This document shows positions 6,975 through 17,044 of a stretch of DNA of 60,716 bases, piece after piece. The notes below the pieces were generated by a model, which saw only the letters and a list, made by a program, of their open reading frames with translations, ran no database searches and was not told where the DNA came from. A program made the position numbers and the translations under genes. Every line of letters begins with the position of its first letter. The stretch's first letter is position 1. Origin of the DNA: Westiellopsis prolifica IICB1 (GTDB lineage: Bacteria > Cyanobacteriota > Cyanobacteriia > Cyanobacteriales > Nostocaceae); the NCBI RefSeq assembly GCF_004323185.1, contig NZ_NAPS01000001.1:273453-334168 (forward strand), in the 5' to 3' direction.

Positions 6975-7271
6975 TTAGTAGCGGTTACGGAAGTTGTTTC
7001 CTCTGTTACCACCATAGGAACCCCTGTTTTCTTTGGGTTTGGCTTTATTCACTTTGAGGTCGCGTCCCATCCACTCAGCACCATCAAGAGCTTCAATGGC
7101 GGCGGATTCTTCAGCTTCTGTACCCATTTCTACGAAACCAAAGCCACGCAAGCGGCCTGTGTCACGGTCGGTTGGTAGCTGAACTCGCTTAACAGTACCA
7201 TATTCTGCAAAGACAGCGTTGAGACTATCTTCAGTAACATCGTAGGAAAGATTGCCTACATAAATTGACAT
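6975..7271 (-). CDS. RRM-type RNA-binding protein (Rbp family)
   Basis: This 98-residue protein has one RRM fold. RNP2 is IYVGNLSYD (3-11) and RNP1 is RGFGFVEM (about 42-49), and a short Gly/Arg/Asn-rich tail (GSYGGNRGNNFRNRY) follows. This is the layout of cyanobacterial RbpA proteins, many of which are cold-induced. The window holds a closely similar paralogue at 16497-16793 and a relic at 13370-13411. All three share a conserved 5' leader in which an inverted repeat covers the ribosome binding site. The ORF starts with ATG after GGAGAAAATTT. It has its own terminator and appears to be a single-gene unit. Confidence 0.92.
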   Translation of the reverse strand: MSIYVGNLSYDVTEDSLNAVFAEYGTVKRVQLPTDRDTGRLRGFGFVEMGTEAEESAAIEALDGAEWMGRDLKVNKAKPKENRGSYGGNRGNNFRNRY

Positions 7272-7390
7272 AAATTTTCTCCAAAACCAGACATAAATGT
7301 GTAGAGATGAGCGATTTCGGAGAAAAGTCTGTCAATACCAAAAGGAAAAAACCCATCAATACTAAGAACAAACACGGTCGCCGAATGAAC
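7272..7390 (-). promoter_or_regulatory. Structured 5' leader of the RRM gene with masked ribosome binding site
   Basis: Upstream of the start codon, the minus strand reads TTTTCTCCGAAA (7315-7326) and then TTTTGGAGAAAA (7275-7286). The two can pair over 12 bases with one G-U wobble, and the right arm contains the GGAG ribosome binding site. Further upstream is a conserved AT-rich block (around 7328-7388, plus strand AGTCTGTCAATACCAAAAGG and so on, to CGGTCGCCGAAT). It is shared with the leaders at 16800-16905 and 13412-13507. The 5' untranslated region of rbpA1 in Anabaena is known to mediate cold regulation. Direct masking of the ribosome binding site is my inference. Confidence 0.7.
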
Positions 7391-7542
7391 TCTCACCCTA
7401 CCAGCATGACATAGCAACCTAAATATCGGCAGCGAAGTTTGAAAAACTGTTATAAAAAGTTATGTTAGCAATTGATAACTAAGCATAAGTTTAATTTTTA
7501 TTTTTTAACTAAATTAAATTTAAGATAACATAATATTATAAT

Positions 7543-7845
7543 TCATAACATGTTAATTAAGTCAGCAAAACCATAAAAACTAACTACTAGTAATAGTAAT
7601 GCTGTCAATTGGGTAACTCGCGTTTGAGGAGAGGGAGCGATCGCTTCTCGGACTAAAATAGAAATTGATGCACCAACCACAAAACTTAAACCCAATACCA
7701 TATAAGGTACTTCTCTTGGTACAACACTAGAAATAGCCAACATCGTAATTGCTAACATCAACATTAACAATTCCACAAACCGCGGTGGATTGTATTGGCT
7801 AGATAAAATTAAAGTGTTTAACCAAAAGCGCCAGCTTCTCATCAC
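7543..7845 (-). CDS. Small conserved-type membrane protein
   Basis: This is a 100-residue protein with about three hydrophobic segments (residues 24-40, 48-66 and 77-97) and a short basic N-terminus (MMRSWRFW). I do not recognise a named family. It lies 87 bases downstream of chlI on the same strand, separated by STRR-like repeats. It might share the chlI transcript, but nothing in the sequence ties it to chlorophyll synthesis. Confidence 0.6.
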   Translation of the reverse strand: MMRSWRFWLNTLILSSQYNPPRFVELLMLMLAITMLAISSVVPREVPYMVLGLSFVVGASISILVREAIAPSPQTRVTQLTALLLLVVSFYGFADLINML

Positions 7846-7932
7846 AAATCAACCATCATTGACATTTTTGCTGTTTGTTGTTGGTTGGTCTTTATTTGTG
7901 ACAACCAACAACAAACAACCAGTAACAATAAA

Positions 7933-9042
7933 CTAACGAACACCTGTTTTCAATTGACTAGTGCCATTTGTTTGTGCGATGTCTTCTGATAGTTCTACAC
8001 CAAAGACACGTGCAAAGGCTTTTTCCACCTTGTAACCAGAATCAATTGACTCTAGAGGATCTTTTCTAAGTCTGTGACGTAAACACAGGACAATCACACG
8101 ACGGATATCATCAACAGTCACTTCGGTACGCCCTTCAAAAGCTGTTAAAGCTTTGGCGGCGCGGTTGGTAACAATATCACCTCGTAAACCATCGACATCA
8201 AGCTCAGAACATACTTCGGAAATTTTCACCCGCAGATCATAGTCAAGATTAACTGAGGGTAAAAGCTCTTGGGCATTAATAATGCGTTGTTGCAGTTCCT
8301 GTTGCTGAGATTGATACTTTTCCACAAAAACAGGAGGATTTTGGTCAAATTCTGACCTTTGCTCCACAATTTGCACCCGCAAAGCTGGCTCTTTGACAGT
8401 GTGAATTTCAGCGTGCATTCCGAAGCGGTCGAGTAACTGGGGACGTAGTTCACCTTCTTCTGGATTCCCAGAACCAACCAGAACAAAACGGGCTGGGTGA
8501 CGGATAGAAATACCTTCCCGTTCTACTGTATTCCAACCACTCGCAGCAGAGTCCAGCAGTACATCTACCAGGTGATCATCCAGCAAGTTTACCTCATCCA
8601 CATAGAGAATACCCCGGTTGGCTTTTGCCAAAAGTCCTGGTTCAAAGGCTTTTACACCTTCTGAGAGGGCTTTCTCAATATCGATAGTGCCGCAAACACG
8701 ATCTTCCGTAGCGCCCAGTGGTAAATCAACCATTTGGACTTTTTTATGATCAACGGGAATCTCACCGCCAGTTTCCAGTTTTTGGCGGATTTCATCGCTC
8801 ATCAAATCAGGATCGCTGGGGTGACTATTGAAGGGATCATTCGCAACTACGGGAATTTCTGGCAGTAAGTCAGCCAGCGCCCGAATAGTTGTGGATTTGC
8901 CTGTACCGCGATCGCCCATAATCATCACACCACCAATTTTCGGGTCAATCACGTTCAATATCAGAGCCAGTTTCATTTCTTCCTGGCCTACAATTGCCGT
9001 AAACGGAAATACCACACGACGCGCAACAGCTGTTGGACTCAC
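7933..9042 (-). CDS. chlI: Magnesium chelatase ATPase subunit I
   Basis: ChlI is the AAA+ motor of magnesium chelatase. With ChlD and ChlH it inserts Mg2+ into protoporphyrin IX, the first committed step of chlorophyll synthesis. Walker [10 protein letters not shown] lies at 43-51 and is preceded by [19 protein letters not shown]. Walker [11 protein letters not shown] is near 150, the sensor region has [22 protein letters not shown], and a C-terminal helical domain follows. The length of 369 residues is normal for cyanobacterial ChlI. The start [20 protein letters not shown] fits the family. Short repeats lie immediately upstream, so its promoter is close to or within the repeat tract. Confidence 0.97.
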
Positions 9043-9108
9043 TAAACTACCTTTATCAATATTTTATATTTATTACCGCTTTTTATTGTGCCATAGATGG
9101 AGAGTCGG

Positions 9109-9240
9109 GAGACAAGGGAAGGGAGACAAGGGAGACAAGGGAGACAAGGGAAGGGAGAATTATTTAACAAGTCTCTTTCCGATCCCCAATCCCCAATCCC
9201 CGATCCCCAATCCCCGATCCCCGATCCCCGATCCCCAACA
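9109..9240. repeat. STRR tracts: GGGAGACAA and ATCCCCA/ATCCCCG repeats
   Basis: Two simple-repeat blocks lie between chlI and the next plus-strand gene. The first is GGGAGACAA repeated about four times (9116-9150). The second is a run of CCCCAAT and CCCCGAT heptamers (9180-9236). Such STRRs are a recognised feature of heterocystous cyanobacteria. The rest of the gap shows nothing else. Confidence 0.85.
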
Positions 9241-9299
9241 ATCAACAACTTAGTTTGATGTTAGGATCTTTTTGTTACTGCTGTGAATCCTCGCTGTTG

Positions 9300-9764
9300 A
9301 TGAATAAATTACTGGATGAAGCGCTGTCTATTGATATTGCTGCTCGCATCAAAAGTAAAGCTAAGAAACCGTTTGATAATGCTTACAAAGCTGCCTTAGC
9401 GACTGAAGGATCTGTTTATGTGCAAGGATTTTTAGCTACCAAGGGTAAACCTTACCAACCTATGGAATATGCTTGGATTGAGTTGAGCGATCGCATTATT
9501 GATCCCACCTTACCCCATCTCCATAAAAATGTAGAAGAACTTTGGTATTTTCCGGCACAGTCATTAACACTAAAAAAACTCAAAGCAATTCTTGAAGAAT
9601 CTCAAGAAGATTATCCAGAAGACGACCCATTACCAGTGTATGGCGATGCACCATATGAGTATTACGGCGATGTGATGTTGGGTGGCAAAAATTACTTACA
9701 AGCTTTTCAAGCCGCAGAAGCGAAATGTAGAGAAGTAAATAAGTCAATTGTTGAGAATAACTAG
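9300..9764 (+). CDS. Hypothetical protein, soluble
   Basis: A soluble protein of about 154 residues. Translation could begin at 9255, but the first 15 codons (MMLGSFCYCCESSLL) look non-conserved, and MNKLLDEALSIDIAARIKSK at 9300 is the more natural N-terminus. The segment SVYVQGFLATKGKPYQPMEY, then AWIELSDRIIDPTLP, suggests a small alpha/beta domain. A strongly acidic stretch (EESQEDYPEDDPLPVYGDAP) follows. I do not recognise a characterised family. Confidence 0.7.
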   Translation: MNKLLDEALSIDIAARIKSKAKKPFDNAYKAALATEGSVYVQGFLATKGKPYQPMEYAWIELSDRIIDPTLPHLHKNVEELWYFPAQSLTLKKLKAILEESQEDYPEDDPLPVYGDAPYEYYGDVMLGGKNYLQAFQAAEAKCREVNKSIVENN

Positions 9765-9776
9765 CTAACCGATAAC

Positions 9777-9807
9777 TGTACAGACGCGATGTTCCTCGCG
9801 TCTCTAA
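9777..9807. repeat. Dispersed GACGCG...CGCGTC palindrome
   Basis: An imperfect member of a family of roughly 28-base palindromes (TGTACAGACGCGAT...CGCGTCTCTA). It lies between two convergent genes at 9764 and 9816. Confidence 0.7.
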
Positions 9808-9815
9808 CTGATAAT

Positions 9816-10220
9816 TTAATTTGACTTACCATCACTACCAAAATACTCCCGGTAGCTACAAATTTTGTCGCCACGTATATCAAAGGAAACGGCTACCCGA
9901 TTTTTGTATGGTTCTCCCAATAACATCCCCTCATCTCGAAATTCAAACACAACCGTTGTTTCACTGCTAGTAACGCGGTCTAATGAAGTTAGTTTGAGTC
10001 CAGGATGAAAAGCCTGTGTGACGTATTGAAAAAACTCTTGCGCTCGTTCTTTACCCACATTCAACCCGTGAAATTTTCCCATTGGGAACCAAAAAGTAAA
10101 GTCTTCAGTGAGCATATCTAAAAACTGGTTCCAATCACCAGTTTCTAAACCATGTTGAAAGTATACAAATGCTTGACGACCAACTTTTAGAGTATTTTCT
10201 GACTCTTGTGTCATAATCAT
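9816..10220 (-). CDS. SnoaL/NTF2-fold protein
   Basis: A small single-domain protein of the SnoaL-like/NTF2 fold (about 134 residues). The helical start (ARQAFVYFQHGLETGDWNQF type) is followed by LDMLTEDFTFWFPMG and a beta-rich C-terminus ending SYREYFGSDG. This fold serves as a ketosteroid-isomerase-like enzyme or a ligand-binding dimer, and the ligand cannot be told from sequence. The frame extends to a TTG at 10226, but ATG codons at 10220 and 10214 are the likelier starts. Confidence 0.75.
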   Translation of the reverse strand: MIMTQESENTLKVGRQAFVYFQHGLETGDWNQFLDMLTEDFTFWFPMGKFHGLNVGKERAQEFFQYVTQAFHPGLKLTSLDRVTSSETTVVFEFRDEGMLLGEPYKNRVAVSFDIRGDKICSYREYFGSDGKSN

Positions 10221-10469
10221 CACCAATCAAATTTAATTATTTGCGATCGCCAAGCAAAAAGAAAATATTAATCACCTGATTAATTTCTACCACAAAAACC
10301 CTGCGTTTCTTTGCGTTTCATCTGCGCCCCTCTGCGTTGAACGTAAAGCTACTCTAATTGAGGTTTATGTTATGACTCAATGATACAAGTGTAATTTAAA
10401 ACATACCCAGCCTCTTTATATGAGATTGTTAGTTACAGAGCGATCGCTGTTGAGTTAGTATTTGACAAC

Positions 10470-10784
10470 ATGATATTAGAAGTTGCAATTGTTGATATTA
10501 AACCTGGTTTGGCTACTGAATTTGAAACTACTTTCAAAATAGCTTCAACCATAATTGCTTCTATGTCAGGATATATTTCTCATGAACTGCAACGTTGCAT
10601 AGAAAGTCCCAACCGCTATATTCTACTGGTACGCTGGCAAAAATTGGAAGATCACACCGTTGGCTTTCGACAATCACCAGAGTACCAACAGTGGCGTTCT
10701 TTACTGCATCACTTTTATCAGCCGTTTCCCACAGTCGAACATTATGAAGTTGTTTTGCACAACTTCAGTACTACACCACACTAA
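10470..10784 (+). CDS. Antibiotic biosynthesis monooxygenase (ABM) domain protein
   Basis: A 104-residue ferredoxin-like fold protein of the ABM superfamily. It has an N-terminal strand MILEVAIVDIKPG, a helix FETTFKIASTIIASMSGY, a second strand HELQRCIESPNRYILLVRWQ, and the typical W..LEDHTVGFRQSPEYQQW segment. Members act as quinone-forming monooxygenases, heme-degrading enzymes or uncharacterised stress proteins. There is no functional context here, as the gene stands alone between repeats. Confidence 0.8.
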   Translation: MILEVAIVDIKPGLATEFETTFKIASTIIASMSGYISHELQRCIESPNRYILLVRWQKLEDHTVGFRQSPEYQQWRSLLHHFYQPFPTVEHYEVVLHNFSTTPH

Positions 10785-10791
10785 TTTTGAT

Positions 10792-11117
10792 AAGTAAGTC
10801 GGCGGGAAAAATTCAATGTATATGAAGAAATATAAATTAGCTGTAGGGTGCGTTGTCGCACAGCGCAACGCACCTTGAATTCTTGACCGTGCGTTATGCC
10901 GTAGGCTAACGCACCCTACATTTAAACTTCTTAACATAGCTAAGTAAGTCGGTAGGAATAAACCTAACCATGTTACGAAAAGTAAACAGCACTAAAATCC
11001 TTACTAATAGCCAATGACAAGTGACTAATTAATGACGACCCCAACGAGTAGAGACGAGCCATGGCACGTCTCTACATTTGTGCCGACTTACTTATAAATA
11101 TTAGCGCCAACTTACTT
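10792..11117. repeat. Composite of MITE-like ends and nested hairpins (no gene)
   Basis: This stretch without a real gene holds four copies of the AAGTAAGTCGG end. Two are in plus orientation (10792, 10942) and two inverted (GCCGACTTACTT at 11082, GCCAACTTACTT at 11106). The end at 10942 continues TAGGAATAAACCTAACCATG, matching the IS630 end at the left edge of the window. Between the first two lies a palindromic insert, TGTAGGGTGCGTT...AACGCACCCTACA (10848-10922), with two inner hairpins. This looks like elements inserted next to or into each other. Confidence 0.65.
11048..11075. repeat. Dispersed GTAGAGACG palindrome
   Basis: GTAGAGACGAGCCATGGCACG followed by TCTCTAC: a 28-base near-perfect palindrome with an NcoI-like centre. 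It lies inside the composite repeat region. Confidence 0.75.
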
Positions 11118-11119
11118 AG

Positions 11120-11153
11120 GTTCGTAGTGAGGACTAAAGTCCTCACTACGAAC
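11120..11153. repeat. Hairpin repeat related to 3906-3959
   Basis: The arms GTTCGTAGTGAGGAC and GTCCTCACTACGAAC are exact inverses around a TAAA loop. This is a shortened relative of the hairpin at 3906-3959, with compensating differences in the stem. Confidence 0.75.
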
Positions 11154-11290
11154 TCCTTTAGTCTGTCGAAATCTTTGTGGCGGAGATCATCAAAATCAGA
11201 GAATAACCAAATATTTTTCTGGAATTTATAAAAAGTACTGTGTAGTAACTTTTTGTTCACTCCCACTAAATTTGAGGAAGAAAAACTTAA

Positions 11291-11572
11291 ATGTCGAGTA
11301 AACGTTTTTTACGTAAGCTTTTGGTAGTTATACGTAAGTTTTTAGTAGTTAAAGAGAAACCAGAAAAATCTTCAAAACCAAAAAATAATAAATCAGGCAA
11401 CCCACCTCCAGTAGGACAAAAAGATAAAGTTCAAATCATAAAACTATTATTCACTGTATTACCATTTATTTCATTAATACTAGGCTTTATTTTAATTATA
11501 AATTTTGATCAATCCAAAACTCAGAGAAAATGTGTATTTCTGTGTCCTAATAACACTAATCAAACTCCGTAG
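11291..11572 (+). CDS. Hypothetical single-span membrane protein
   Basis: A 93-residue protein with a very basic N-terminal half (MSSKRFLRKLLVVIRKFLVV, then many Lys), one strong hydrophobic helix (about 57-75, FTVLPFISLILGFILIINF), and a short Cys-containing tail. A ribosome binding site (TTGAGGAAG) precedes the ATG. The gene is AT-rich compared with nearby housekeeping genes. It lies 38 bases before another membrane protein gene, so the two may be co-transcribed. No known family is recognised. Confidence 0.6.
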   Translation: MSSKRFLRKLLVVIRKFLVVKEKPEKSSKPKNNKSGNPPPVGQKDKVQIIKLLFTVLPFISLILGFILIINFDQSKTQRKCVFLCPNNTNQTP

Positions 11573-11610
11573 TTCATTGTTTATATTTCATAATTAAAAG
11601 GAAAAACATA

Positions 11611-12003
11611 ATGTACGGTTTTCAACTATACTTTGTAACATTTATATTAGCTATCCTCGTTGTTGTCGATGGAATATTATCAGCTACAGGATTAGTTAAT
11701 ATATTGCAAGCAAATAATTTATTTACATATATTTTAGCTGTAGGAATGGGAATATTTATAACTGGCATGTCATTAATGCATAAAATGTTAGATTATAAAC
11801 CAATTGGTTTAAAAATGTTAATTTATTTAGGAATAATGTTAGATGCATTGACAACAATTATAGCAACACATAATTTAGTAGGTAGTTCAACAAATTCTGA
11901 ATTAAGTAATTTAATAAGTGGTGTAGTTGGAATCACAGGCGGGATAGTTCTTACCTCAACTACTATATATACAGGTGATTTTATTGATGACTATTGGAAC
12001 TAA
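11611..12003 (+). CDS. Hypothetical four-span membrane protein
   Basis: A 130-residue protein with four hydrophobic segments (about 5-25, 38-58, 72-90 and 103-122) and short loops. AAAGGAAAAACATA precedes the ATG. It follows the single-span protein gene closely on the same strand. It is AT-rich and I recognise no family. Its short length and even spacing of helices suggest a small integral membrane bundle. Confidence 0.6.
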   Translation: MYGFQLYFVTFILAILVVVDGILSATGLVNILQANNLFTYILAVGMGIFITGMSLMHKMLDYKPIGLKMLIYLGIMLDALTTIIATHNLVGSSTNSELSNLISGVVGITGGIVLTSTTIYTGDFIDDYWN

Positions 12004-12123
12004 AATTGAATTAGAAAAGGTGCGGTTTCATCTGTTGTACTGACGTATGCTTCATGTACATGAAATGAACTCGGCACCCTTCATACCATGAGATTTTATC
12101 AAGCGATCGCAACCCTTCACAAC

Positions 12124-12963
12124 CTAACGATTATCAGCTATTTTCCTTTCTAAAACAGAAATGCGTTCCCGTGGGTTTGGGTGAGTACTTAAAAACGCTG
12201 GTGCAGAAGAACGATTCACCAATTTCTTTAAGAAAGCAGGCATAGCATTCGGATCATAACCAGCCCGTTGCAAATACTGTAATCCCTTAGCATCAGCATT
12301 AAACTCAGCCTCACGACTATTAGGCAAGTCTACAGCCAGCTGATAAGCCGCAGCAGTCAATTTACTTCCATTTAAACCAGCAAGTGAAGCTGCACCTTGA
12401 GCTAGTTGTGTTTGCCTGAGTTTGTTAATCAAGTCATCATTACAAATGTGAGCAATTTCGTGTGCTATCACCGACGCCAATTGGTCTTCATTATCCGCAG
12501 CATTAATCAAGCCACTATGGACATAAACATAGCCGCCTGTGGTAGCAAAAGCATTAATACTTGGATCTTGAACTACATAAAATTTAAAAGGAGTTTGAGA
12601 ACAGTTACTGGAACGCACTAATTTTTGACCAATTCTGGTAATATTTGCATTCGTACCAACTCTGTAATTACTGCGTACCTGCTGATGTATATTGCTGCCT
12701 AATTTAACCTTGTCCTTAGTTGATAAATTAGAAAGTTGAAAATATTGAATTCCTGGAACAATTAAATCTTGAAATGGAAGCGCTTCCGCAGGTTTAGGAG
12801 CAGATAAACCTACACTCGCAGCAGTTCCCAATCCCAAGATTAAAGAAAGGCCTTTATTTAACTTCTTAGGCAAACGAGAAAGATCTTCCTTCCTTTGTGT
12901 TCTTTGCGTACTTCGTGGTAGCCTGTGGCAAGCCGCTTGCGCGTCTACTTTAAAAAAAATCAT
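12124..12963 (-). CDS. M48-family zinc metalloprotease (exported)
   Basis: A peptidase M48 domain protein. The zinc-binding motif HEIAH (in SVIAHEIAHICNDD) and the third ligand region SREAEFNADAKGLQYLQRAG are both present, followed by the typical STHPNPRERI. A signal-like helix (GLSLILGLGTAASVGLSA) precedes the mature part, so it probably acts in the periplasm. It resembles BepA/YggG-type quality-control proteases. The first about 22 residues (VDAQAACHRLPRSTQRTQRKE) are encoded by a dispersed repeat that occurs without a gene at 56650-56712. The true or ancestral start may therefore have been further in. Confidence 0.85.
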   Translation of the reverse strand: MIFFKVDAQAACHRLPRSTQRTQRKEDLSRLPKKLNKGLSLILGLGTAASVGLSAPKPAEALPFQDLIVPGIQYFQLSNLSTKDKVKLGSNIHQQVRSNYRVGTNANITRIGQKLVRSSNCSQTPFKFYVVQDPSINAFATTGGYVYVHSGLINAADNEDQLASVIAHEIAHICNDDLINKLRQTQLAQGAASLAGLNGSKLTAAAYQLAVDLPNSREAEFNADAKGLQYLQRAGYDPNAMPAFLKKLVNRSSAPAFLSTHPNPRERISVLERKIADNR

Positions 12964-13069
12964 TTCTCCAACTCAAATGAATAAAATGACTGCTATGTCA
13001 TTCTTCTACTATTTATATAATAACTAATTAAAATCGTTGAAAATCCTCTACCTTGGGGTTGAAATTTTT

Positions 13070-13345
13070 GTATGTGCTATTATTGATGACTTATTAAAAG
13101 CGATCGCTCATAAAGAAGATATTCGTCGATAAATGAGTGATGCAAAAATTATTACAGCAGCTTTGACAGCAGCGATATTCTTTAGTGGTAATCATACCAA
13201 GGCTTGTGAATATATAACAGACCATAAGCTAGTGACAAAGATGCTATAAAATTCACACTTTAACCGACGATTACATAATATTTCAACGTTAATAAATGAT
13301 TTATTTCATCAAATAGGAGCGATCGCATTCAATAGTAATTTTATA
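13070..13345 (+). pseudogene. Decayed IS982-like transposase N-terminus
   Basis: One reading frame can be followed through two stop codons (13130-13132 and 13246-13248). It gives VCAIIDDLLKAIAHKEDIRR, then MSDAKIITAALTAAIFFSGN, then NSHFNRRLHNISTLINDLFH. This resembles the N-terminal part of IS982-type transposases (FCIIDDLL...MSDAEI...RFNRRLH...LFHQLG). No catalytic domain follows, as the homology fades before the rbp relic at 13411. It is a small, long-dead fragment. The family assignment is from memory of the motif pattern. Confidence 0.55.
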
Positions 13346-13369
13346 TTTAATAATCCGCAAATTGGATTA

Positions 13370-13411
13370 CTACTGGCTAGTGTTAAAGCATCCAGTAACG
13401 TAAAGTGACAT
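13370..13411 (-). pseudogene. RRM-protein gene relic (start codon and first codons only)
   Basis: Immediately downstream of an intact-looking rbp-type leader, the minus strand begins ATG TCA CTT TAC GTT (MSLYV). This matches the MSVYVG and MSIYVG starts of the two complete RRM genes. It then diverges to TGCFNTSQ and stops. The rest of the gene is missing and is replaced by the IS982-like debris to its left. Confidence 0.6.
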
Positions 13412-13507
13412 AAAATTGTCTCCAAAATCAAATTGTGCAGAGATTTAAATTTTGGAGACAAGTCTGTCAATCACAAAAAGCAAAAACCTGTTAATACTAA
13501 AAAAAAT
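13412..13507 (-). promoter_or_regulatory. Orphan rbp-type leader with perfect inverted repeat over the ribosome binding site
   Basis: The arms TTGTCTCCAAAAT (13416-13428, plus strand) and ATTTTGGAGACAA (13449-13461) are exact 13-base inverses. The conserved block AGTCTGTCAAT...CCTGTTAATACTAA follows as in the two functional leaders. On the minus strand the GGAGAC lies 7-8 bases before ATG. It is the most regular of the three hairpins although its gene is gone. Confidence 0.65.
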
Positions 13508-13636
13508 TGTGTCTGATTTTATTATCATCTTCAACCTTAACACGAAATTCAGTCTCTCTACAGAATATTTTTCTAAAGGCTTATTTGCAGTGTTAAGCAA
13601 TCTTTCGCCCATTTTATCTGAATCTCGGCTGAATGC

Positions 13637-13900
13637 CTATCTTAATTCAACGTCTTGCTCAAAAACTAAAATAAAATCATTTACGGTTTTTTTGTATTGA
13701 AAACCATAATCCAATAAAGCTTGCTTTAAAGTTTGCAAGTCAGATTGTTGTAATTGAATTTTATTGGTTGCTATCTCAATAGCTTTTTGATTGACAGTAA
13801 AACTGAAACAATCTTTAAATTGCTTATAATCCCAGTTTAATTTTCTAGCTGCATTTAACTCTATGGCAGCTAATGTATCATCAAATTTGCTTGCATTCAT
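13637..13900 (-). CDS. Hypothetical small protein
   Basis: An 87-residue soluble protein (MNASKFDDTLAAIELNAARK to FILVFEQDVELR), mixed alpha/beta and rich in Lys, Asp and Gln. On the minus strand a good ribosome binding site, TTGGAGAGAATAATTT, precedes the ATG, which supports it being a real gene. No family is recognised and no neighbour gives a hint. It is flanked by transposon debris on one side and a non-coding AT-rich region on the other. Confidence 0.6.
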   Translation of the reverse strand: MNASKFDDTLAAIELNAARKLNWDYKQFKDCFSFTVNQKAIEIATNKIQLQQSDLQTLKQALLDYGFQYKKTVNDFILVFEQDVELR

Positions 13901-14129
13901 AAATTATTCTCTCCAATCATCTTACCTATATTTTAACAGTCATAATATCCAACAAACCAAATATAAATATTAATTAAGAGTCAATAAACAAGAAAAATAT
14001 TTTATATTTTTCCAAAGATAAATCTTTCGGTAAATGTTGAACAAAGAGTCATATAGTAGTAATTTATAGTTAATAAATCGATGCAGTTGCTTTAACAGGG
14101 GTGGGAGTAACTTAGAACTGCTGGGCTGG

Positions 14130-14324
14130 GTGTTGTTTTTTAGTCTCATGCAATGCAATTATATATACAACCAAAACAATATTAATATAAAATATTTAGG
14201 GAAATATAACTGCTATAATAACAATAAAATAACTGCGATAACGCTACACATTAGTAAGGCAGCTAATATGGCTGCTAATGAAGTCTTGAGATTATATGCA
14301 AATAGAGAAATAAATTTTAGTTAG
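14130..14324 (+). CDS. Possible small ORF, doubtful
   Basis: A 64-codon frame ends inside a strong hairpin. Only its last part (LHISKAANMAANEVLRLYAN) looks protein-like, and the first half is Asn/Tyr-rich and looks non-coding. No convincing ribosome binding site is seen. It may instead be a short non-coding transcript ending at the hairpin. The remainder of 13901-14460 shows nothing else. Confidence 0.25.
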   Translation: MLFFSLMQCNYIYNQNNINIKYLGKYNCYNNNKITAITLHISKAANMAANEVLRLYANREINFS

Positions 14325-14356
14325 GCAGATTTGCTCAGAATCAGCCTAACTAAAAT
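14314..14356 (+). terminator. Perfect 13-bp hairpin, terminator-like
   Basis: ATTTTAGTTAGGC (14314-14326) and GCCTAACTAAAAT (14344-14356) are exact inverses with a 17-base loop. The 3' side is A-rich rather than T-rich beyond the stem, so termination efficiency is unclear. It could work in either direction. Confidence 0.5.
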
Positions 14357-14466
14357 AAATCGAAGGAATGATGTAAAAAATCTGTAGCATAACTAACCAA
14401 TGAATTCTTTTTTATACTCGTTAGTCTCAAAGAATTACAGAAACTTAAAGTTTAATTAGTACATTT

Positions 14467-14663
14467 AAGTAGGTTGGCACAAATGTACCAGACGTGCCAT
14501 GGCACGTCTGGTACTCGTTAGGATCGTCATTGTGTTTTACTCTTACGGGTAGGCGCGTAAGCGACTTCTGCAAGTAGCCGCTTGCGCGTCTATGTCATTA
14601 GTAAGCGTTTGGGCGATTTTATATTTCTTAACATAGTTATGTTTATTTCCGCTTACTTACTTA
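14467..14663. repeat. MITE-like element upstream of apcA2
   Basis: The left end is AAGTAGGTTGGCACAAAT. The right end, read inwards on the opposite strand, is TAAGTAAGTAAGCGGAAATA then AACATAACTATGTTAAG. Inside are a perfect 30-base palindrome (14485-14514) and a copy of the GCGCGTAAGCGAC / GCCGCTTGCGCGTC repeat. It fills most of the space upstream of apcA2 and ends about 78 bases before its start codon, so it may contribute to the promoter. Confidence 0.6.
14485..14514. repeat. Perfect 30-base palindrome
   Basis: GTACCAGACGTGCCA and its exact inverse TGGCACGTCTGGTAC meet at the centre. It is a diverged member of the GTAGAGACG...CGTCTCTAC family, in which both arms changed together. Confidence 0.75.
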
Positions 14664-14740
14664 TTTCATTCCACTAGTTAAGCAACCCCTGTAATTCCGA
14701 TAGAACAAACATAATTTCATTTTTTTGAAGGAGTCTGTTA

Positions 14741-15226
14741 ATGAGTCTGATCATAAAGTCGATTCTGAATGCGGACAGCGAAGCTCGCTATCTCAGCCCT
14801 GGTGAGCTAGAGCCAATTAAAAGCTTTGTCAAAAGTAGTGAGCGTCGTCTGCGCCTTGTTCAAGTTTTAAACGAAAACCGAGAGCGCATTGTTAAGCAAT
14901 CTGGAAACCAGCTGTTTCAAAAACGCCCAGATGTTGTTTCCCCTGGTGGTAATGCTTATGGACAAGAAATGACTGCAACTTGTCTACGAGACATAGATTA
15001 CTATTTACGTTTGATCACTTACAGTATAGTAGTTGGTGATTCCACTCCAATTCAAGAAATTGGGGTCATTGGTGCTCGCGAAATGTACAAGTCTCTTGGC
15101 ACTCCGATTGAAGCCGTTGCTGAAAGTATTCGTGCGATGAAGAATATCAGCGTCTCAATGATGTCAGGAGAAGACGCTAGTGAAATTGGTACTTACTTCG
15201 ACTACTTAATAGCTGGACTCCTGTAG
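14741..15226 (+). CDS. apcA2: Allophycocyanin alpha-type subunit, divergent second copy
   Basis: A 161-residue phycobiliprotein of the phycobilisome core. The bilin attachment site Cys81 is present in [18 protein letters not shown], along with the family hallmarks [15 protein letters not shown] and [16 protein letters not shown]. The sequence follows ApcA rather than ApcD, but it differs from a standard ApcA at many surface positions ([15 protein letters not shown], ending [14 protein letters not shown]). It stands alone without apcB, apcC or apcE. An isolated second apcA (apcA2) is known from Calothrix/Fremyella PCC 7601. A good ribosome binding site (GAAGGAG) precedes the ATG. A tiny Lys-rich ORF follows 44 bases later. 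Confidence 0.9.
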
Positions 15227-15270
15227 AGCATTGTAGCTACTTTACTGACTACTAATATTGGAGAGTAATA

Positions 15271-15378
15271 ATGTCGAAGAAAAAAAATGGCAATAGAGAA
15301 GTCAAAAAACCAAAAAAAGATCCTCATAAAAAAAAGGAGAAAAAAGACCCGAACAGACATGACACTATAGGTCAATAA
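15271..15378 (+). CDS. 35-residue lysine-rich peptide ORF
   Basis: ATG at 15271 follows TTGGAGAGTAATA, a well-placed ribosome binding site. The ORF runs to TAA at 15376-15378 and encodes MSKKKNGNREVKKPKKDPHK followed by KKEKKDPNRHDTIGQ. More than a third of the residues are Lys. It lies 44 bases downstream of apcA2 on the same strand without an intervening terminator, so co-transcription is plausible. I know no family for it. A basic disordered peptide might bind an acidic protein or RNA, but that is speculation. Confidence 0.45.
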   Translation: MSKKKNGNREVKKPKKDPHKKKEKKDPNRHDTIGQ

Positions 15379-16029
15379 CTGGGAGAATATTAGAGCGAAA
15401 AAAGTACGTTTACCTCTAGGCAAAGTATAGCCTGGAGGACAAACAGAATCCTGAAAAACGTAAGGCGTTTAAAGAAAAGTTATCAGAATATTTAAGAATA
15501 ACTAAAAACTGCTAGCTAAAAACAGCACAGTTTGACACTCCCTTGCCTAAAGGCGAAGGGATTCTTGGTACTCTTCGAGAAGGCTTCGCCTACAACGAGT
15601 CCACTTAGATTAGATCCCTTGCGGTATCGTTCCCCAGAGGTGGTTCTCTCCCCAAGCTTTAACTTTCGGTCTGCCCGACCGTAGTTGAATATTCCAAAAT
15701 TTGTTTGATTTAAATTCTGTTCGCGTTAGCGTCTCGTTAGAGAATCGTCTAGTCCCCATGAAGATTTTACCTATTCCTGGGAAGGAACTAGAACTATGGA
15801 ATAGAACGCCATATCTTCAATTGTCAAGGTGCAGATTGCCGTTAGGCAGCTAGGTTTTTATACAGGTTGATTACCGTTCCTGTTAAGCTTAACTGTACTA
15901 CAAATTGACTCAGGCGTAAAACGCCTTGCGGCAGCTTTCAACACGCAGCCTGAAGTACGAAATACGGCGCTGTGCGCCTGTTCGGGGCGGGTTTTCAGCT
16001 AGCCTTTCTTATAAAAAATAAATTATTAA
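15379..16029. other. Non-coding region with possible transposon end (IS200/IS605-like) remnants
   Basis: No convincing gene is visible. After a short open stretch (15420-15515, LEDKQNPEKRKAFKEKLSEY, without a start codon) comes GACACTCCCTTGCCTAAAGG, continuing CGAAGGGATTCTTGG (15533-15567). This forms a GCCT/AGGC hairpin and resembles the structured right ends seen beside TnpB genes. The sequence up to about 15730 (including AGAGGTGGTTCTCTCC) has the feel of conserved structured RNA. No TnpA or TnpB coding remains. Assignment is from memory and weak. Confidence 0.3.
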
Positions 16030-16335
16030 TCAATAGAAAGCTTCTATGTTGTGTCGAAAAGCGATTAAGGCGTGCTTCCCCTGTTCCTGTTTTAGCGCAC
16101 AAAGGATCGCATCAGATGCTTCTAATGATACTATTGTTTTAATTTCGATATTAGTGTTGTAGCCTGCTAAGTCTGCCAAGCGTCTTCCGTGACCGCCTTC
16201 ACCCTGCACTTGGCTAATGGTGTAGCCGCTTACATTATGGCTTTTTAGGAGCTTAACAATACGGTCTTTAAGCACCGTTTCACCAATGATGGTGATTAAA
16301 ACAGCAGGTTCTAGGGGAGTGAGTGAGTCTGACAT
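16030..16335 (-). CDS. PII-like signalling protein (GlnB/SbtB superfamily)
   Basis: A 101-residue protein with a PII-like ferredoxin fold. The first strand is VLITIIGETVLKDRIVKLLK and the diagnostic start of the T-loop region is HNVSGYTISQVQGEGGHGRR. The second half is NIEIKTIVSLEASDAILCAL. It lacks the conserved uridylylation Tyr region of GlnB and the C-terminal Cys-containing extension of SbtB, so it is a divergent PII-like protein. Ligands could be nucleotides, but this cannot be read here. No sbtA or ammonium transporter gene is adjacent. TCTGGAGTTCTCT precedes the ATG. Confidence 0.7.
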   Translation of the reverse strand: MSDSLTPLEPAVLITIIGETVLKDRIVKLLKSHNVSGYTISQVQGEGGHGRRLADLAGYNTNIEIKTIVSLEASDAILCALKQEQGKHALIAFRHNIEAFY

Positions 16336-16404
16336 AGAGAACTCCAGAGATTAGGTTTTGGTTCAGAAAGCTTAAATTTTCGTTGCCCAGTCCAGATTCT
16401 GTAT

Positions 16405-16434
16405 TAAAAAGGCTCAAGCATTTGTGCTTAAGCC
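16405..16434 (-). terminator. Rho-independent terminator of the second RRM gene
   Basis: On the minus strand GGCTTAAGCA and TGCTTGAGCC form a 10-bp stem with a CAAA loop, followed by five T. The G-T wobble occurs only in the minus-strand RNA, which agrees with it ending the RRM transcript (gene ends at 16497). Confidence 0.85.
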
Positions 16435-16496
16435 AGTAGTGAATAGAATTAATGTGCTATATTAATCAGCTATGTTTACAGCTAAATCAATAAAGC

Positions 16497-16793
16497 TTAG
16501 TAGCGGTTACGTCCGCCGTAGCTTCGCTGACCACCAAATGAACCTCTATCTTCTTTAGGTTTAGCCTTATTCACTTTAAGGTCACGTCCCATCCACTCAG
16601 CACCATCAAGTGCTTCAATTGCAGCTGTTTCTTCTGCATCTGTACCCATTTCCACAAAGCCAAAACCGCGTACACGACCTGTTTCACGGTCAGTAGGTAG
16701 CTGAACCCGCTTTACAGAACCATATTCTGCAAAAACTGCATTCAAACTATCCTCTGTAACATCATAGGAAAGATTGCCTACATAAACTGACAT
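16497..16793 (-). CDS. RRM-type RNA-binding protein (Rbp family), second copy
   Basis: This 98-residue paralogue of the protein at 6975-7271 differs mainly in the C-terminal tail (GSFGGQRSYGGRNRY). RNP2 is VYVGNLSYD and RNP1 is RGFGFVEM. The tail is Gly/Arg-rich, as in cold-inducible cyanobacterial Rbps. The gene has its own leader and terminator. The two RRM genes keep similar coding and leader sequences about 9.5 kb apart, which suggests a fairly recent duplication or ongoing gene conversion. Confidence 0.92.
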   Translation of the reverse strand: MSVYVGNLSYDVTEDSLNAVFAEYGSVKRVQLPTDRETGRVRGFGFVEMGTDAEETAAIEALDGAEWMGRDLKVNKAKPKEDRGSFGGQRSYGGRNRY

Positions 16794-16910
16794 AAATTGT
16801 CTCCGAAATCATAAGGGTGTGGAGATTTAAGTTTCGGAGAAAAGTCTGTAAATACCAAAAGGAAAAAGCCCGTCAATACTAAAAACAAACGCGGTCGCCG
16901 AATTAACTTC
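16794..16910 (-). promoter_or_regulatory. Structured leader of the second RRM gene
   Basis: TCTCCGAAA (16800-16808, plus strand) and TTTCGGAGA (16832-16840) are exact 9-base inverses. On the transcript the GGAGA ribosome binding site is in the stem. The conserved upstream block runs to CGGTCGCCGAAT near 16903. From the start codon of this gene to the radical SAM gene at 17555, the rest of the sequence holds only the MITE at 17045-17222. Confidence 0.7.
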
Positions 16911-17044
16911 TCGCTTATTTAAGATAACATAGCAAGCCAATTATTACGGGATAGTTGCAACAACTGTTATATAAAGTTATGTAAACTATTTATAGCTAAG
17001 TATGAATGATAACGAAAATCCAAAGTGCGATTCGTTGATGACCA

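Follow-up and report, generated by a model that had tools for sequence, protein, structure and literature searches.

What do the leaders of the RRM-type RNA-binding protein (rbp) genes of Westiellopsis prolifica IICB1 do with their own Shine–Dalgarno (SD) sequences? The DNA analyzed here, 60,716 nucleotides of contig NZ_NAPS01000001.1 (the window), carries three copies of such a leader on its minus strand, and in all three a GGAG lies inside the 3′ arm of a hairpin, 7 or 8 nt upstream of an ATG. The arms were quoted by an earlier reading made without database searches (the sequence-only reading), and they exist: TCTCCGAAA (16832–16840) pairs with TTTCGGAGA (16800–16808) in copy 1 (start at 16793), TTTTCTCCGAAA (in 7313–7326) with TTTTGGAGAAAA (in 7275–7288) in copy 2 (start at 7271), and TTGTCTCCAAAAT (13449–13461) with ATTTTGGAGACAA (13416–13428) in copy 3 (start at 13411). 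All three fold beyond dinucleotide shuffles, with z-scores of −3.0, −5.07 and −5.26 for copies 1, 2 and 3, respectively. The main result is a second, competing helix, in which an upstream block would pair with the arm and loop of this hairpin; it turns the leader into a candidate bistable translational switch (coordinates in Table 1).

By sequence comparison, the SD hairpin is conserved in the order. It takes two typical forms, UCUCCGAAAUC–loop–GAUUUUGGAGA (type A) and UCUCCGAAUC–loop–GAUUC(n)GGAGA with a one-base bulge (type B). CUCC-like and GGAG-like elements were detected in 111 of 112 distinct leaders, and the GGAG, or a near variant, stands 7 nt from the ATG in 84 of the 111. Fold z-scores averaged −2.66 over 60 sampled family leaders (39 below −2), compared with −0.47 over 27 other rbp leaders (3 below −2). 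Exchanging arms between leaders weakened the hairpin, from −13.69 to −12.43 ± 0.16 in 111 leaders and from −13.12 to −11.70 ± 0.18 in a set of 92 non-redundant leaders; in the latter set no exchange reached the observed value (0/500; 1 to 144 of 500 in five subgroups). The conserved hairpin and its weakening by arm swaps thus lend in silico support to the proposal of the sequence-only reading that the SD may be masked in an RNA switch.

The evidence for coevolution of the two hairpin arms is real but modest. The covariation score was above 500 of 500 shuffles in alignment A1 and was not above shuffles in alignment A2 (373/500), and total pairing was above one tree-based null (0/300), which may overstate decay. 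Tree-based double changes were not significant (21/300 overall, 5/300 for outer pairs and 137/300 for inner pairs), nor was the tree-based pairing excess (63/400 in type A and 83/400 in type B, the latter computed in the type A register with the bulge ignored, and so conservative). Four leaders (L307, L277, L092 and L263) keep the stem with changed letters, with a strong z-score only in L263 (−2.84). The sequence-only reading had argued for compensatory changes from the window copies themselves. These do differ in pairing at a few positions: arm position 6 is G–C, G·U and A–U, and position −1 is U·C (unpaired), G–C and U–A. The A–U pair amounts to a single G-to-A change in copy 3, a gene-less relic (see below), because its relative in genome G226 has G·U. 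Three copies are insufficient and could not have shown covariation, since even in a 42-leader alignment any double change occurs in only 4 of 14 hairpin pairs and the CUCC/GGAG pairs are nearly invariant.

The 5′ half of the hairpin loop (TCTCTACA, UCUCUACA) carries 1.2–1.9 bits per base, about as much as the arms, compared with 0.2–0.7 for the 3′ half, and the loop is retained in three leaders that have lost the left arm (L066, L261 and L273). A plain SD mask is therefore insufficient, because the conserved 5′ half is not needed for masking; the competing helix described next uses the loop. As a separate observation, AATCTCTACA occurs 34 times in the window's genome, compared with 16 times for the reversed pattern.

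A second conserved block lies farther upstream and reads GUGAGARUUAAUUCGGYGA, GAGAAUUAUUUUCGG or a form ending in AUCGG. TTCGG is present 70–119 nt upstream of the ATG in 156 of 198 leaders, and the median distance of TCGG in the main groups is 108–109 nt with type A arms and 82–85 nt with type B arms. This 5′ block is complementary to the entire anti-SD arm and loop, and we call the resulting helix P1. The type A consensus duplex scores −13.7, a value reached by 0.7% of 5000 shuffles; the type B consensus scores −12.3, matched by 5.0% of shuffles of the block or 1.8% of shuffles of the arm. Leader by leader, a TTCGG block pairs more strongly than its own shuffles do on average in 151 of 153 cases. 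Where an ATTCGG block accompanies a type A arm (92 leaders), 50 blocks beat 95% of block shuffles and the neighboring control stretch does so once; for AUCGG-form blocks the count is 1 of 26. In copy 2 of the window, the 5′ block is the site of the upstream region's best duplex with arm and loop (−20.3).

Anchoring on TCGG removes leaders in which the block itself has changed, and we therefore located blocks with a matrix that ignores the T and C positions of TCGG. Of 190 leaders, 168 combine TCGG with the arm G and 22 depart from this pattern. Among the departures, which were assigned by reading the outputs by eye, core-pair double changes join TTGG with CCAA (L038, L054 and L260) and TGGG with CCCA (L215); in L038, L260 and L215 the hairpin pairing at the changed site is lost and the P1 pair is kept, and L277 keeps a C–G core pair. 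The others are L282, which does not pair at this position, three arms with an inserted C (L053, L264 and L284), eight leaders with block scores below 5, three in which the matrix picked a site other than the visible TCGG (L113, L243 and L280) and two in which the CTCC taken is not the left arm (L263 and L286). Block position 15 and arm position 6 covary beyond shuffles in type A (2/500) and in type B (1/500). In type A the excess extends to two UUA pairs and to every one of the four GAGA pairs (0 to 8 of 500); in type B fewer pairs show it, and the flanking GUG columns do not. Rows with block scores below 5 (14 of 190) were omitted from this test and from the fold-energy test below, which also omitted 17 rows without GGAG and 4 with too few pairs.

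Tree-based pairing excess for P1 was 53.4 against −2.2 ± 19.6 in type A (120 rows, 3/400) and 11.4 against 0.5 ± 7.2 in type B (53 rows, 25/400), with slid controls at 35–282 and 222–338 of 400, respectively. After thinning to below 80% identity, arm swaps reached the observed P1 value in 1 of 400 (type A) and 3 of 400 (type B) trials; below 70%, the type B count was 4 of 400. The covariation check suggested by the sequence-only reading thus gave a divided result: the tree-based pairing excess fell short of significance in the hairpin and reached it in a competing helix which that reading had missed. The P1 covariation statistics are nonetheless of mixed strength, as the weighing below makes clear.

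Type A leaders contain a further stem, P2 (GUUUGU:ACAGAC). In 53 diverged type A leaders, 92.7% of its cells are paired, compared with 32–51% in slid controls, and 7 cells show double changes where 2.1 are expected (0/500). Together with P2, the leader upstream of the SD is predicted to form a single long imperfect hairpin in the examples inspected. Folding of truncated transcripts at 20 °C covered 159 of 190 leaders. When transcripts end before the SD, the P1 core has a predicted probability above 0.5 for 102 of the 110 type A leaders and for 45 of the 49 type B leaders. In full-length transcripts the SD hairpin is predicted to be favored (75 of 110 type A, 27 of 49 type B) over P1 (28 and 13, respectively). 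Shuffling the block lowers the expected number of block:arm pairs from 13.5 to 7.3 and from 13.2 to 7.5. The predicted energy of the alternative fold minus that of the hairpin at 20 °C is +2.12 kcal/mol in 107 type A leaders and −0.05 in 48 type B leaders, with the alternative favored in 31 and 20 of them; the corresponding means at 38 °C are +1.97 and +0.67.

We propose that the leader is probably a bistable, co-transcriptional RNA switch controlling translation of cluster-I RRM genes, a reading we hold with modest confidence and whose basis is conservation, complementarity, covariation of mixed strength and predicted folds. The anti-SD arm and the loop together make up a single strand, UCUCCGAAAUCUAAAUCUCUACAC, that would have two alternative partners. 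In the OFF fold the arm would pair with the SD segment and hide GAUUUUGGAGA; in the ON fold the arm and loop would pair with the block GUGAGARUUAAUUCGGYGA through P1, the block probably lying near the 5′ end of the transcript and, in type A leaders, being brought to the arm by the intervening P2. Because block, P2, arm and loop precede the SD in synthesis, P1 would form first and the SD strand would later have to displace it. The RNA would be translatable at birth and would close later unless something held it open, for example ribosomes, a bound protein or sluggish strand exchange at low temperature. In cells, this proposal would have both folds occur, the block lie inside the transcript, translation be the step controlled, and cold or a protein set the balance.

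Since the order of synthesis would leave the leader open at first and closed afterwards, it is a candidate kinetic switch, and slow strand exchange in the cold would have the right sign for a cold response. A more specific and rather speculative version is that the speed of exchange is itself the thermometer: the nascent leader would be open through P1, cold would slow displacement by the SD strand, rbp mRNAs made in the cold would stay open longer, and the encoded RRM protein itself may bias the exchange. Were it to do so, this would be an autoregulatory RRM-protein switch in bacteria. The bistable leader would explain in concrete terms how a gene family could be cold regulated through its 5′ region, as has been reported, and, if true, would add a widespread, multi-copy RNA regulator in bacteria whose RRM proteins act post-transcriptionally. 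Because the strands of the two competing helices are defined and open to mutation and rescue, the question of cold regulation becomes directly testable in Anabaena or Synechocystis. If true, the proposal also carries a warning: conservation of a hairpin loop may reflect base pairing and need not mark a protein-binding site.

Several results weigh against a bistable switch. For the hairpin, a G-test similar to that of R-scape found no significant pair, and RNAalifold returned 4 pairs with a covariation term of zero on A1 and no pairs on A2. For P1, the same test on type A leaders found no significant pair anywhere, P1 included (best E 2.9), and the covariation score was not above shuffles on A2 (461/500), a MAFFT alignment of 53 rows in which the block is partly misaligned. 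Block:arm duplexes anchored on TCGG were no better than swapped ones (173/500), and L282 combines arm CCAA with an unchanged TCGG block, giving no pairing. The type A signal drops on thinning to below 70% identity (58/400). Low values (1, 29 and 46 of 400) were likewise obtained for one slid control of the thinned type A set, and shared ancestry may therefore account for some of the P1 signal. Complementarity of the type B consensus is weak, and the type A block with the type B arm (−21.1, 0/5000 shuffles) pairs better than either consensus with its own partner, which could reflect ancestry or cross-talk between paralogous mRNAs. On the folding side, going from 38 down to 20 °C improves the relative standing of the alternative fold in 43 of the 107 type A leaders and in 29 of the 48 type B leaders. 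This trend is inconsistent, and equilibrium folding therefore gives no thermometer. Even with P1 enforced, the SD is predicted to be open only 0.23–0.42 of the time, and the ON state may need more than P1. Finally, −10-like hexamers upstream score no better than shuffles.

Two other roles would be compatible with such a switch. The element is almost exclusive to RRM genes (120 of 134 hits of covariance model R1, described below) and common to paralogues, as would be expected under autogenous control, in which the loop AUCUCUACA or the block would be a putative site at which the RRM protein itself binds and holds the SD hairpin closed; at low temperature, Rbp would be drawn off to other RNAs and its own synthesis would rise. 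The strong conservation of the loop, which is kept even in the three leaders without a left arm, fits this idea but is already accounted for by P1, and the genomic excess of AATCTCTACA over its reversed control is a count only. We regard autogenous control as possible rather than likely. We are similarly tentative about mRNA stability as the main role, in which the long 5′ hairpin would protect or expose an RNase site and SD pairing would be secondary. Two papers (Sato and Nakamura 1998; Ehira et al. 2005) link the 5′ untranslated region (UTR), by their titles, to rbpA1 expression and low-temperature transcript accumulation; against this, the 3′ arm falls on the SD, the spacing to the ATG is so often 7 nt (84/111) and arm swaps weaken the hairpin.

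The block could instead be an element of DNA or of the initial transcribed sequence (a promoter, start site or regulator site) whose complementarity to the arm arose by chance. Among 90 non-redundant type A leaders there are 24 whose best TATAAT-like hexamer ends 7 nt before GAGA. The complementarity of the type B consensus reaches only the 5% level, and P1 covariation is missing from the TCGG-anchored swap, the type A G-test, RNAalifold on A2 and the A2 pair score. We nevertheless judge chance complementarity improbable, as block and arm covary in double changes, shuffles, tree-based tests and thinned swaps, a signal absent from the GUG columns and from most slid controls. Least probable is a simple RNA thermometer in which heat melts the SD hairpin, the kind of thermal switch that the sequence-only reading had entertained. 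The SD is paired in a local hairpin in all three window copies, but its predicted opening is flat: in local folds of 198 family leaders the median probability of an unpaired SD is 0.000–0.001 at 20–45 °C, and longer folds give equal means at 20 and 38 °C (0.14 in type A, 0.11 in type B). Melting would moreover mean induction by heat, opposite to the cold response reported in the parts of the literature consulted (PMC12475003, PMC6091082), and would leave the conservation of the loop without an explanation. We rejected it as the main account on the flat opening and the wrong sign.

A role of the rbpA1 5′-UTR in cold regulation has reportedly been in the literature since 1998, to go by a title of Sato and Nakamura. 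Among the titles and abstract openings found, none gives a fold, a mechanism or an SD switch for rbp leaders, although this does not prove absence. Conserved 5′-UTR boxes of cold-regulated rbp genes (Sato, Maruyama, Hamano, Ehira) are described there as boxes, with no fold named; it is tempting to identify the P2 strands with these boxes. In the literature, rbp1 of Synechococcus UTEX 2973 is termed a known cold-shock gene and is dark induced (PMC6091082), RbpA/Rbp1 is termed cold induced (PMC12475003), the start sites of rbpA2 and rbpA1 come second and third when those listed for Nodularia are ordered by reads (PMC3610870), and Anabaena has eight rbp genes, given with their classes (PMC11500504).

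The proposed bistable leader resembles three kinds of known system. Like the cold-responsive cspA-type leader of Escherichia coli, which precedes the gene of a cold-induced RNA-binding protein, it would have two alternative 5′-UTR folds, with initiation of translation freed in one of them, and its gene too encodes an RNA-binding protein called cold induced; the rbp leader is, however, shorter, matches no Rfam family at gathering score and has no consistent predicted temperature bias. Translational riboswitch platforms similarly switch a shared anti-SD strand between the SD and an upstream strand, whereas the rbp leader is without an identified aptamer or ligand. In ROSE and FourU thermometers the SD also lies in the 3′ arm of a hairpin, but the rbp leader differs from them in its conserved loop, in a predicted SD opening that stays flat between 20 and 45 °C and in its wrong sign.

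The sequence-only reading had taken all three window copies for leaders of RRM genes. This holds for copies 1 and 2, which adjoin RRM-type rbp genes (Pfam RRM_1), and not for copy 3, which is followed by a 13-codon frame. In genome G226 (L346), of the same genus, the same leader precedes an intact 99-aa RRM gene; relative to G226, the window has a deletion of ~356 bp that joins codon 5 to sequence beyond the RRM gene, leaving at 13370–13520 (minus strand) the leader and about five codons. Judged from this alignment, copy 3 is a relic, and the window holds two live leaders and one relic. As for a functional decoy RNA, which we considered for copy 3 and rejected, the degraded 5′ block looks like decay, yet other orphan leaders exist.

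Table 1. Positions of leader elements, RRM genes and relic features in the window.
Feature	Positions	Strand	Basis
RRM-type RNA-binding protein gene, 98 aa, below leader copy 1	16497–16793	−	Open reading frame; Pfam RRM_1 E 3.7e-21
RRM-type RNA-binding protein gene, 98 aa, below leader copy 2	6975–7271	−	Open reading frame; Pfam RRM_1 E 2.5e-21
Copy 1, 5′ block GCGAGAAGTTAATTCGGCGA, proposed anti-anti-SD strand	16895–16914	−	Family conservation, complementarity, tree-based test
Copy 1, GTTTGT, P2 5′ strand	16885–16890	−	
Copy 1, ACAGAC, P2 3′ strand	16844–16849	−	
Copy 1, shared anti-SD arm TCTCCGAAAC, putative partner of SD or 5′ block	16831–16840	−	
Copy 1, conserved loop CTTAAATCTCCACAC, putative 5′-block partner in alternative fold	16817–16831	−	
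Copy 1, right arm TTTCGGAGA; SD GGAG at 16801–16804	16800–16808	−	
Copy 2, 5′ block GGTGAGAGTTCATTCGGCGA	7378–7397	−	
Copy 2, GTTTGT, P2 5′ strand	7368–7373	−	
Copy 2, ACAGAC, P2 3′ strand	7327–7332	−	
Copy 2, shared anti-SD arm TTTTCTCCGAAATC	7313–7326	−	
Copy 2, loop GCTCATCTCTACAC	7299–7312	−	
Copy 2, right arm GGTTTTGGAGAAAA; SD GGAG at 7279–7282	7275–7288	−	
Copy 3, SD hairpin of relic leader without RRM gene; arms 13449–13461 and 13416–13428	13416–13461	−	
Copy 3, degraded 5′ block AAAATCAGACACAA (relative: AAAATTCGGACACAA)	13507–13520	−	
Copy 3, leftover 13-codon frame MSLYVTGCFNTSQ, spanning deletion junction	13370–13411	−	

The leader recurs throughout the close relatives of these genes. 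A sequence-only leader profile matched 104 of 106 distinct rbp starts taken from close protein matches, or 63 of 65 when its seed is excluded. For leaders fetched by protein alone, the matches were 76 of 78 distinct leaders at the 80 top-scoring named loci and, in the order sample, 28 of 28 (47 of 49 and 16 of 16 without seed sequences). These loci were the best-scoring matches (the best 80 of 537 relatives, and 30 loci at most), so the figure of 104 of 106 describes close relatives; regions mostly picked by R1 were excluded from it. In the window's genome, 9 of 10 parsed leaders matched the profile. That genome has 11 RRM matches, and at E ≤ 0.01 R1 finds 8 leaders in it: those of 6 intact RRM genes, that of 1 broken RRM copy (contig C13, L011) and the relic. 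The broken copy, at G000:C13:2328–2546 (L011, L015), is a further case of an rbp leader before an RRM copy interrupted by stops.

Among 146 genomes drawn from the phylum, 49 had R1 matches in a search whose stricter filters lose weak matches. The 134 R1 hits divide into 120 that adjoin an RRM start, 6 that mirror the palindrome on the reverse strand and 8 orphans; this linkage used 197 of 224 RRM matches, the 27 omitted being the weakest rows of one listing, and 77 of the 197 RRM places had no R1 hit. Besides the relic of the window, the orphans include five from the same family of cyanobacteria: three (L165, L166 and L169) reach a stop within about a dozen codons, and two (L167 and L168) have no start at the expected place; the latter, from the same genus, have flanks in common, so the orphan state looks inherited. 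Two weak orphans in genomes without a matching RRM gene are probably noise. Among RRM leaders picked because R1 missed them, 20 of 21 distinct ones were also missed by the profile, and RRM genes starting MTIYVGNLSYRATE (L173, L293, L294, L297, L298 and L309) gave no profile match. Rfam at gathering score returned no family for the window leaders or for 11 loci, and in E-value mode it gave two hits in 7200–7500 far below gathering, neither a thermometer. The genes starting MTIYVGNLSYRATE have another common upstream motif, TTACGTGAYC, beside the ATG. Just downstream of the rbp gene at 16497, the window also contains a short open reading frame with a nitrogen regulatory P-II domain (PF00543, E 3.8e-12; 16030–16335, minus strand).

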